In this document: piece by piece, positions 16,501-20,436 of the stretch
How positions within the stretch are numbered: position 1 is the first letter of the stretch
How the letters are laid out: every line of letters begins with the position of its first letter
Origin: a virus
IMG/VR virus record: IMGVR_UViG_3300031951_013550
Span: 1-24,967 of that record
Direction: 5' to 3' (one strand)
DNA: 24,967 nucleotides
The notes under the pieces: generated by a model
Seen by the model: the letters and a program-made list of their open reading frames with translations, nothing else
What the model was told of the DNA's origin: nothing
Database searches by the model: none
Made by a program: the position numbers and the translations under genes

Positions 16501-17031
16501 CTGTTCACCCTGGCCGGCTGGTTGGGGTCGACGAACCCGTTGTTCCAGACGGCGACCCAGGCTCTCGGTTTCGACCCGATGCAGGGTGGTATCGACCTGT
16601 ACCCGCAGATGTCCTATTCCCCCGAGACCGGCAAGATGGTGGTCGACACCGGCAACCCGGTGCAGAACCTCGCGATCAACTCGATCCCGCAGCTCGGTGC
16701 CCTGTTCCGGTACATGGGCCGCGACGAGGATTTCAACAAGCTGATGCGCGAGGACCCCGAGACCGCGCAACGGATCCTGCTGTCCGGTATCGGCATCCCC
16801 GGTTCGTACCGTCGTTACTCCCGCGAGGAAGACATGGTCGGCAACGAGCTGAAGCGACAGGAAGCGTCGTCCGATGCGACCTCCCGCGCTTACCGCACCG
16901 GCAACCTCGACGCGCTCATCCCGTTCATGGGTGAGGAAGCGGTCGCCCGACTCAAGGAGCTCCGCGAGTCCGGGGCGATCGACGAGTACCTGCCGTCCAC
17001 CACTCCCCAGAGATTGGAGCCCGCCGCATGA
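13558..17031 (+). CDS. Very large internal virion protein, 1157 aa
   Basis: The ATG is four bases after the previous stop. No strong ribosome site is visible, so translation may be coupled. The chain is mostly helical. A hydrophobic stretch lies near residues 735-755 (PRWHLYNAVGGAMMMSAE), and an aromatic patch near 900-925 (QVFPFYSWLSHLMRFVF, then TYPADHP) resembles the conserved core motif of large internal head proteins in actinobacterial short-tailed phages. No lytic transglycosylase or other enzymatic motif was seen. As third and largest of the ejection-type block, it would be the counterpart of the biggest T7 core protein. Its last codons overlap the XRE gene start (ATGA). Confidence 0.6.
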   Translation: MALEDVLARIRNQQIGQTQDDRLVDRGPSAPIQLNRPKALTALENKYRDPEYQAAIAQLPGPVQQAIQQTDLRRIDRGQTPVNAENSIKAGLAAMTGQAITPVSDRRDGIASIPTNAIGDLAQIVKSLPQLPQALAGEVKDLTDGFADDYAQNAKEGKTGLAATLSLPGIRLIPGTYAASNALSNRQAFIEDPLLNLLDVLPVAGKLAKATPVVKAAEEAAALERLAPLENTTRLPKPVRPLKTLATRRLDDAGEVVPNKLGDLIERGMTTRPGQALRTTFGQDARDVSRSGVLAEQGAEQRLIRPDDADLPGQIGKAWMDLRNPDRLLEDYGITPEREIELGKITTEQPQLRATLPENEQRYLNDTRAASDQLAQYLVDRDELVRVGDEVFAPADGKRLNRYLDQAIKKQQTVVQEAMDDIDALAQVDTRWVEIRDMIDYGDFTGAKKRINQLQKYNGSSVGINDRRMQKIRTLINDAGTWQGNYQRLRARTNPARFDELINDRAAKAYLDNLESRSQFTDRAQAEKFVQMGVLDQIPGFDAREWAKFRGGIQRNWEALKAAGEDPDFLSRTTTAQANRIGVARFDGTNRSIATARARVTDVSPGVRSPALALTRQAWDIIQSEGAKEWGRQIQDDFGVREQVLRDQFTQPAVALAEQQGLPLSEVSRLRADLISEKWMPFDPAKMTPFSGQVLPVGEKVFIPRAVGETLMQINSEGLSKMRAFSDPVTRLWRVALLPLSPRWHLYNAVGGAMMMSAEVGPQAFRHMRVAREIATAAREGTELPRWIPRELERSIGLIGKEEASLALKKGGSLNRWSQTWAAQKGRDFVQWSYDTNSKFDDMYKVMTYLEGEAQAVNRFKKAGISDDVARNMAAEEGIRVARKVLQDVAGATPFERGILRQVFPFYSWLSHLMRFVFTYPADHPWRAAIVAAGSRIVMEDMGDGASTDMLDILSWGERDEQGRQRGLNVRGLNPFSDAANLFTLAGWLGSTNPLFQTATQALGFDPMQGGIDLYPQMSYSPETGKMVVDTGNPVQNLAINSIPQLGALFRYMGRDEDFNKLMREDPETAQRILLSGIGIPGSYRRYSREEDMVGNELKRQEASSDATSRAYRTGNLDALIPFMGEEAVARLKELRESGAIDEYLPSTTPQRLEPAA

Positions 17032-17336
17032 GCCGGCCTTTCAACACCGACACTCCGCTCGGCCAACTGATGGTCGACCGCGGCTACACCGTCAAGGGCC
17101 TCGAGGCCGCGACCGACATCTCGTACCGGACGATCTCCGACTACCTCGCCGGCAGGAAACCGATCATCGCCCGCCACATGGCGGTCCTCACCGACACGTT
17201 CGACGTGAGCCGCGACGTGCTGCTCGGGTACGAGGACATCGAGTCGGTCCGTCAGCCGGTCGTGCCGCCCGTGTCGAAGCCCGAGCTCGACGATGTGGTG
17301 GCCCAGTGGCTCGAGCACAGGGAGGTGGCATCGTGA
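17028..17336 (+). CDS. XRE/Cro-CI-type HTH regulator, 102 aa
   Basis: Start ATG overlaps the previous stop by ATGA, with TTGGAG eight bases before it. Residues ~11-67 form a complete XRE helix-turn-helix: LGQLMVDRGYT, GLEAATDISYRTISDYLAGRK (the recognition region) and a C-terminal helix ending DVLLGYED. The C-terminal 30 residues are a Pro-rich linker and a short helix (PELDDVVAQWLEHREV). It lies inside the late operon between the largest internal protein and the endolysin, not near an early promoter or facing another regulator, which is unusual. Its stop overlaps the endolysin GTG. Possible roles are late-gene feedback, immunity or control of lysis. Target unknown. Confidence 0.75.
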   Translation: MSRPFNTDTPLGQLMVDRGYTVKGLEAATDISYRTISDYLAGRKPIIARHMAVLTDTFDVSRDVLLGYEDIESVRQPVVPPVSKPELDDVVAQWLEHREVAS

Positions 17337-18771: not shown

Positions 18772-18784
18772 ACAGGAGGCCATG

Positions 18785-18997
18785 ATGGCTGACTACACAC
18801 TGACCCAGTCGGAGCCGGTTGCGCTGGCCGGCACGATCCAGGGGGCGCTGTCTGCGCTCATCGCCCTGGCGCTCGTGTTCGGCTGGGTGGACTTGACCCC
18901 CGATCAGATCGCTGCGATCCTCGCCGCGTACACCGCTGTGGTGGCGGTGCTGACGAGCGTGGCACGGTCCCGGGTCACCCCGACAGCGACCCTCTGA
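18785..18997 (+). CDS. Two-span small holin-like protein, 70 aa
   Basis: AGGAGG at 18774-18779 is five bases from the ATG at 18785 and only two bases from the ATG at 18782, so the second ATG is preferred (either would give nearly the same protein). Two hydrophobic segments, about residues 13-35 and 41-61, are joined by a short turn with DLTPDQ. The end ARSRVTPTATL is positively charged. The pattern GWVDLTPDQIAAILAAYTAVVAVLT followed by ARSRVTP is typical of small holins in actinobacterial phages. It is the last gene before the integrase region. Holin role fairly likely, but division of labour with the four-span protein is unknown. Confidence 0.7.
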   Translation: MADYTLTQSEPVALAGTIQGALSALIALALVFGWVDLTPDQIAAILAAYTAVVAVLTSVARSRVTPTATL

Positions 18998-19007
18998 GTC
19001 CTTCGCT

Positions 19008-19067
19008 GATCCCATGTGCCTAATTTGAACACGACAAACGTGTTGTGTAGATTAGGCACATGGGATC
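19008..19067. other. Long dyad in front of the integrase, candidate attP
   Basis: GATCCCATGTGCCTAAT at 19008-19024 is the perfect inverse of ATTAGGCACATGGGATC at 19051-19067, with scattered additional matches inside and the symmetry centre between 19037 and 19038 (central AA). Phages with large serine integrases normally keep attP right beside the integrase gene as a dyad of about 50 bp, and no other dyad of that kind is seen nearby. A smaller palindrome (AACACG at 19028-19033 with CGTGTT at 19039-19044) is nested inside. The right arm contains the integrase ATG. An operator or a hairpin function is also possible. Confidence 0.55.
19025..19053 (+). promoter_or_regulatory. Integrase promoter within the dyad, leaderless start
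   Basis: TTGAAC at 19025-19030 and TAGATT at 19048-19053 are separated by 17 bases, matching the housekeeping sigma consensus at four of six positions each, with TG directly before the -10. Transcription would begin about six to seven bases downstream, at the A of the integrase ATG (19060). No Shine-Dalgarno is present, so the message is predicted leaderless, which is common in actinobacteria. Confidence 0.6.
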
Positions 19068-20436
19068 GAAGGTCATCTACACGCGCATCAGCAAGGACCC
19101 CGAGGGGGTTTCCGCCTCACCGGAAGCACAGCACGATGAGTGCGTTCGGGAGGCCAAGCGGCACGGCTGGGCCGTCGACTCGATTCTCCACCTGTCCGAC
19201 GTGGACATGTCGGCATGGAACCGAGCGATCGAGCGGCCAGCTTGGAACGCTGTGCTCGAGGGGATCGCTGACGGGTCGATTGACGGCCTCATCGTCCACC
19301 ACCTCGACCGGATGCTCCGCCAAGTTCGGGAGCTCGAAGAACTCATCACCGTCATCGAGGATCGTGGTGGTCGGTTCCCCATCTACTCGGTCCACGGCGA
19401 CCTCGACCTGTCCACCCCCGACGGGCGGGCGATGGCGCGCATTCTGGTGACCATCGCCCAGAAGGAGTCGGACGACAAGAGCCGGCGACTCAAGCTGGTG
19501 CTCGCCAAGAATGCGGAGCAGGGCAAGGTCCACGGCGGGATCGCGCCGTACGGCTGGGACGAGGATCGCATCACGATCAACCCCCACGAGGCGCGCGTGG
19601 TGCGCCAGATGGTCGACTGGCTGATGGACGGAGAGTCCCTTGCCGGCATCACGCGTCGGCTCAACGCTGCAGGCGAGCCAACCAGAAAGGGAGGGCGTTG
19701 GTACCCCACCACCGTGAAACAGATCCTGATGAACCCACGCCTCGCCGGCATGCGGACCCACAACGGAGTCATCGTCAGTGAGGGTGAGTGGGAACCGATC
19801 ATCGACCTCGAGACCCACCGCTCGCTCTGTCTCCGTCTGGATGGGTCGGCTCATGATGGACACAACACGTCCCTGAAGCACTGGCTTGTCGGAGCTCTCA
19901 CCTGTGGGATCTGCGGTCGACGGATGCGAACAAGGCTGCACCACGTCCAAGGTCAACGCTACGTCTGCCGGAAGGATCAGGGAGGGTGCGGCAACGGCAT
20001 CGCCGCTCATATCCTCGAGCAGATCATGACCACCCTGACCATCGGGGTGCTGAAGAACCAGCAAGAGCAGATCAAGCCGGATGACACCCAGGTGCAGGAG
20101 TTCGAGGGTGAGCTGGCAGCGGCCAAGAGGCGGCGCGACCAGCTCGCTGCCGACTACTACGGACAGCAGCTTCTCGAACGCGATGAGTACCTTGCGGCAA
20201 AGAAGGCTGTCGGTGAAGTGATCGCTGACCTCACCATGCGGATCCGAGCCGAGGAAGTCAGCCTCGCCCAGAGCGCCACCGACATCGACGGGGCGTGGGA
20301 CGGGCTCAACCCGGTCGACAAGCGTGCGATCGTCACTGAGGTGTTCGAGTCGATCGTGGTCAACAAGGCTACGCCTGGCCGTCGATTCGATCCGACTCGG
20401 GTTGTGGTGACGGTGCGGGGGGCTTCGATCGCCTGA
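19060..20436 (+). CDS. int: Large serine recombinase (integrase), 458 aa
   Basis: Residues 1-150 are the resolvase catalytic domain: YTRIS at 7-11 with nucleophile Ser11 and Arg9, and HLDRMLR at 81-87 containing the conserved Arg84. Residues ~155-260 form the recombinase domain (HGGIAPYGWDED, GITRRLNAAGEPTRKGGRWYP). A zinc ribbon follows with Cys282, Cys285, Cys303 and Cys310. Residues ~340-405 are a coiled-coil insertion, then a short C-terminal domain. Length and order fit phage serine integrases, which join attP to attB in the host chromosome. The start codon lies in the right arm of the 60-bp dyad. Its 3' end overlaps a convergent gene by 68 bases. Function sure. Confidence 0.95.
   Translation: MGSKVIYTRISKDPEGVSASPEAQHDECVREAKRHGWAVDSILHLSDVDMSAWNRAIERPAWNAVLEGIADGSIDGLIVHHLDRMLRQVRELEELITVIEDRGGRFPIYSVHGDLDLSTPDGRAMARILVTIAQKESDDKSRRLKLVLAKNAEQGKVHGGIAPYGWDEDRITINPHEARVVRQMVDWLMDGESLAGITRRLNAAGEPTRKGGRWYPTTVKQILMNPRLAGMRTHNGVIVSEGEWEPIIDLETHRSLCLRLDGSAHDGHNTSLKHWLVGALTCGICGRRMRTRLHHVQGQRYVCRKDQGGCGNGIAAHILEQIMTTLTIGVLKNQQEQIKPDDTQVQEFEGELAAAKRRRDQLAADYYGQQLLERDEYLAAKKAVGEVIADLTMRIRAEEVSLAQSATDIDGAWDGLNPVDKRAIVTEVFESIVVNKATPGRRFDPTRVVVTVRGASIA

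Follow-up and report, generated by a model that had tools for sequence, protein, structure and literature searches.

Where does attachment end and gene expression begin at the integrase locus of this phage? In the viral DNA analysed here, a stretch of 24,967 nucleotides that we call the window, the start codon of a large serine recombinase gene lies within a long inverted repeat, and a sequence-only reading had proposed that this 60-bp dyad is at once a candidate phage attachment site (attP), a promoter and the integrase start. The features of the region are as follows:

18782-18997, plus strand: open reading frame for a small membrane protein, holin-like by eye, ending 10 bp ahead of the dyad
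19008-19067, no strand assigned: candidate attP, 60 bp (dyad scan; form as in PMC4068962 and PMC5311408)
19008-19024, no strand assigned: left arm of the dyad, outer P half-site of the candidate attP (repeat analysis)
19025-19030, plus strand: candidate -35 hexamer TTGAAC, on the P side of the crossover (sequence pattern)
19037-19038, plus strand: central AA, predicted crossover dinucleotide, non-palindromic (fixed-geometry scan)
19048-19053, plus strand: candidate -10 hexamer TAGATT, on the P' side, whose TAG is an in-frame stop barring an earlier start (sequence pattern)
19051-19067, no strand assigned: right arm of the dyad, outer P' half-site, which holds the integrase ATG (repeat analysis)
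19060-20436, plus strand: large serine recombinase (integrase) of 458 aa (PF00239, PF07508, PF13408), with its start codon at 19060-19062 and a predicted leaderless transcription start at 19060

The dyad consists of two perfectly complementary 17-bp arms around a 26-nt spacer, exactly as had been claimed, and it clearly outranks every other dyad in the window, scoring 17 against 11 for the runner-up and against maxima of 10 to 15 in ten shuffles. Each shuffled window contains 0.017 perfect 14-bp repeats with spacers of no more than 60 nt; extrapolated from this rate, the chance expectation for a perfect repeat of 17 bp is about 3e-4. Shorter, closely spaced perfect inverted repeats (10-12 bp) are also overrepresented throughout the window (1-24967), outnumbering those in shuffled sequence about 5- to 20-fold (21 versus 4.5 for 10 bp, and 6 versus 0.3 for 12 bp), these counts including sub-repeats of the 17-bp dyad. 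The domain make-up of the adjoining gene's product is that of a large serine recombinase: Resolvase, Recombinase and zinc ribbon. Its start is fixed, as the TAG at 19048 closes the frame and leaves no earlier in-frame start, and the protein aligns with its relatives from the first residues on; the placement of the ATG inside the right arm thus stands.

Attachment sites of serine integrases take the form of a perfect inverted repeat with a spacer no shorter than 20 bp and a total length of 42-69 bp (PMC4068962; PMC5311408). The window dyad has this form in its arms, spacer, length and non-palindromic AA centre, and it adjoins a large serine recombinase gene. When one fixed geometry was scanned from -250 to +60 around 24 integrase starts, the predicted crossover in the window was the AA at 19037-19038, centred at -22.5 from the integrase start. 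The same scan recovered known centres, namely, GG for phiJoe, as in its record, and TT for phiC31, which is the known phiC31 core. Significant dyads directly upstream of the integrase gene were found in L001, Saftant, Dexers, Rusticus, Pumpkins, Elezi, Joemato, Alvy, Thestral and SpecialK, the named phages among these coming from Streptomyces, Arthrobacter and Curtobacterium, and the dyads of the Arthrobacter phages Pumpkins and Elezi directly adjoining the gene; some of the tested relatives had no dyad. Weak dyads near the integrase genes of Bongo and of an M. avium plasmid were not significant in the scan and were set aside; M. abscessus prophages of the related cluster-M type in fact have their attP about 8 kb from the gene.

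Two relatives have integrases 47% identical to that of the window. The first, L001, harbors a 56-bp dyad in the same place, with its centre at -25.5 and the core CC; this is the top dyad of its contig, and the integrase ATG again falls inside the right arm. The innermost P' bases are common to both sites (CGTGT after the core), whereas the outer arms differ and are unrelated in sequence. Geometry has therefore been kept without sequence, which argues for a protein-bound dyad that evolves together with its integrase. In the second, L002, no dyad was found upstream of the integrase gene. Among the closest known counterparts is phiJoe (Streptomyces, Camvirus), in which a dyad attP with a non-palindromic central dinucleotide likewise sits immediately ahead of a serine integrase gene, and whose attP has been confirmed experimentally 18 bp upstream of int (PMC5311408). 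However, the phiJoe attP ends those 18 bp before the gene, with its centre at -43.5 and the start region outside the dyad, whereas the window dyad is centred at -22.5 and includes the ATG in one of its arms.

The sequence-only reading had named the junctions of related prophages as a check on the attP assignment, and those we could place gave a divided picture: one break lies just upstream of the integrase gene, but two prophages of M. abscessus have theirs about 8 kb away. The former is in a genome of the phylum Chloroflexota (G088) that carries an integrase 30% identical to that of the window. Just upstream of this integrase gene, around position 99190 of contig C11, a host secretion-ATPase gene (cpaF-like, T2SSE family) stops mid-frame, and the other part of the host gene lies at C9:1. 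An intact homolog of the ATPase, 88% identical in protein sequence, is present in a second genome (G036:C29:63418-64263), and homology between the two genomes ends at ACAGGGCA; the remaining ATPase part opens contig C9 with the same ACAGGGCA, reading ACAGGGCACCCGGG. The break in homology and the start of C9 together place the G088 crossover about 34-38 nt before the integrase start codon. On the phage side are a -10-like TACAAT and the start codon, and the -35 position (at 17-nt spacing) straddles the crossover. A search for the inverted P half of the site returned only the known half itself, the P half being absent from the assembly.

The two M. abscessus prophages, prophiGD54-2 and prophi86-1, have integrases about 30% identical to that of the window, and their records begin and end with the same five bases (GACTA and GGGCT, respectively). 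These shared 5-bp cores are seen at the ends L107/L108 and L109/L110 (MW584202, MW584160). As the extracted M. abscessus prophage sequences include the common core at both ends, according to their authors (PMC8092301), the shared cores place the attP of both prophages about 8 kb from the integrase gene. Few usable relatives came from profile searches based on divergent alignments.

Searches with the 17-bp arm in genomes and viral contigs found no host, attB, prophage or junction of the window phage itself: the exact arm had three chance-like matches in genomes, none within a prophage, and it matched three unrelated phage contigs, none of which encodes a serine recombinase. Among annotated phages, the 111-bp region spanning the dyad had no match. 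No Rfam family reached its gathering threshold at the dyad, and no tRNA overlaps it. In these three phage contigs, intergenic sequences (L009:6264-6292, L010:2924-2952 and L011:2854-2882) match the right half-site only (26/29 over 19039-19067), the centre and left half of the window dyad being unmatched; this resemblance may be due to chance or to a shared element. Judged from sequence comparison, the identity of the dyad as a putative attP is well supported by its form, its position, the L001 counterpart, the controls with known attP sites and the junction in a distantly related prophage.

The promoter proposed within the dyad is laid out as TTGAAC, 17 nt, TAGATT and then 6 nt to the A of the ATG, so that both hexamers fall inside the dyad; their positions are certain, and the quality of the promoter is moderate. 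The elements claimed by the sequence-only reading are present, and the arrangement of TTG, TAnnnT and start codon is the sole instance on either strand of the 25-kb window, but 'near-consensus' overstated a match of 8/12, and a consensus promoter scan with a threshold of 9/12 reported nothing for this pair. Further evidence comes from a comparison across related integrase genes (the window, L001, L002, L026-L046, L056, L057, L061, L063, L067, L069 and G012). A TAnnnT box 5-9 nt ahead of the start, which we call a flush -10, precedes 20 of these 31 genes but only 3 of the 96 other genes from the same loci (Fisher p about 1e-12; about 2e-11 for 17/27 after removal of near-duplicates). The integrase gene of the window has such a box and almost no Shine-Dalgarno pairing (-1.8 kcal/mol, against -5 to -11 for most window genes), which are the two marks of a leaderless gene. 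The flush -10 enrichment and the missing Shine-Dalgarno sequence make it likely that the integrase mRNA is leaderless and starts at or next to 19060, as had been predicted for this ATG, and the comparison suggests that leaderless integrase mRNAs may be customary in this clade.

The flush promoter is one trait and the neighbouring attP another; in the window and L001 the two coincide. The integrase gene of prophiGD54-2 has a flush -10 despite an attP about 8 kb away, showing that the promoter form is independent of the attP. The integrase gene of mycobacteriophage Bongo has a flush -10 as well. A strong promoter, TTGACA-17-TAACTT, also precedes the integrase gene of another Chloroflexota genome (G012), which we set aside as an attP or junction case because it has no dyad and no close relative to reveal a junction.

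Taken together, we consider it probable that the 60-bp dyad is the attP of the adjacent serine integrase, with the integrase promoter and start codon embedded in it. The sequence-only reading was largely right on the anatomy. It had further proposed that late transcripts reading through from the lysis genes contain the two arms and bury the ATG in a stem, so that the dyad would also act as a translation lock. In the form weighed here, the lock would be selected, with integrase made from the short leaderless transcript only. RNA folding bears out the pairing: bases from about -10 to +5 around the ATG have a pairing probability near 1 in the read-through RNA, as part of a hairpin of -40.5 kcal/mol (z -7.2), whereas in an RNA starting at 19060 the ATG is mostly open. 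Lysis-type genes do lie upstream on the same strand, no terminator-like site was found between the small membrane-protein frame (18782-18997) and the integrase gene, the L001 ATG is likewise within a dyad arm, and stem-loops in the 5' UTR of the ICEKp1 integrase gene are known to lower full-length int transcripts (PMC13023037). However, a symmetric attP yields such a hairpin automatically, without selection for one, and where the attP of a relative is farther upstream, its dyad does not reach the ribosome-binding region; phiJoe, Dexers, Saftant, Rusticus and phiC31 all have their start region beyond the dyad. The lock is thus physically plausible but unproven, since the symmetry would produce the hairpin anyway; we regard it as speculative, and selection for it as rather doubtful. 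Slightly less likely still is that the 60-bp element works at three levels, as a recombination site, as a promoter split by integration and as an RNA lock on late read-through transcripts; if so, integrase production would be confined to the free genome and to the gene's own leaderless transcript.

The same folding result weighs on another explanation, in which the dyad is the attP but the integrase is expressed from a promoter farther upstream, the match to TTGAAC and TAGATT being accidental. The merely moderate consensus match would fit such an accident, as would the base composition of the dyad, which is AT-richer than the genome (45% versus 67% GC). On the other hand, a transcript from upstream would bury the ATG and offer no Shine-Dalgarno sequence in compensation, and an accidental match sits poorly with the strong enrichment of flush -10 boxes among related integrase genes, so we consider this explanation unlikely. 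That the dyad is instead an operator, through which a phage or host repressor acts on the integrase promoter, and not a recombination site is very improbable: it does overlap the promoter, and an HTH protein is encoded at 17028-17336 (its Pfam match being under the curated cut-off), but each half extends about 30 bp from a non-palindromic centre, a length that matches an integrase site and exceeds that of the usual dimeric operator, and the homologous layout with unrelated arms in L001 agrees with the attP sites of phiJoe and phiC31.

Returning to the dyad as a probable attP with an embedded promoter, it would belong to a familiar type of attachment site but be unusually compact, since its 60 bp hold the promoter and the start codon as well. 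Integrase dimers would bind the P and P' halves and cross over at the AA at 19037-19038. In the free phage genome the promoter would be whole, with the -35 in the P half and the -10 and ATG in the P' half, and would direct a leaderless integrase mRNA from 19060 or next to it. Because the centre lies between the -35 and the -10, integration would separate the former from the latter and the ATG: the P half would move to the far prophage end, while the integrase gene would keep its -10 and ATG, with host DNA in place of the -35. The earlier expectation that the crossover replaces the -35 side follows from this geometry, and it has a parallel at the G088 junction. We infer that integrase synthesis should drop after integration, and that integrase bound at attP should block its own promoter (autorepression), just as we infer the binding, the crossover and the start site.

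Parts of this scheme are found in other elements. Tn4451, a mobilizable transposon and not a phage, encodes the large serine recombinase TnpX, whose promoter is likewise complete on the circular form only; a start codon inside a perfect dyad is not known from that system. For intS of the KplE1 prophage, overlap of the integrase promoter with the recombination site and repression by its own product are established (PMC2951348), as proposed here. However, KplE1 has a tyrosine integrase with arm and core sites, its RDF also represses, and the overlap involves attL in the prophage, whereas in the window it involves the free attP. ICEKp1, besides the stem-loops mentioned above, uses different int promoters when integrated and when excised (PMC13023037), but it is an ICE at a tRNA gene, has a 5' UTR, is driven by the host tRNA promoter when integrated, and has neither a serine-integrase dyad nor a leaderless start.

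If the proposed arrangement holds, recombination itself would remove half of the promoter, and the integrase would be switched off without an extra regulator. For the clade as a whole, the comparison predicts leaderless integrase mRNAs from genes with a flush -10. Those who work with serine integrases should be aware that a native attP may coincide with the native promoter of the gene.
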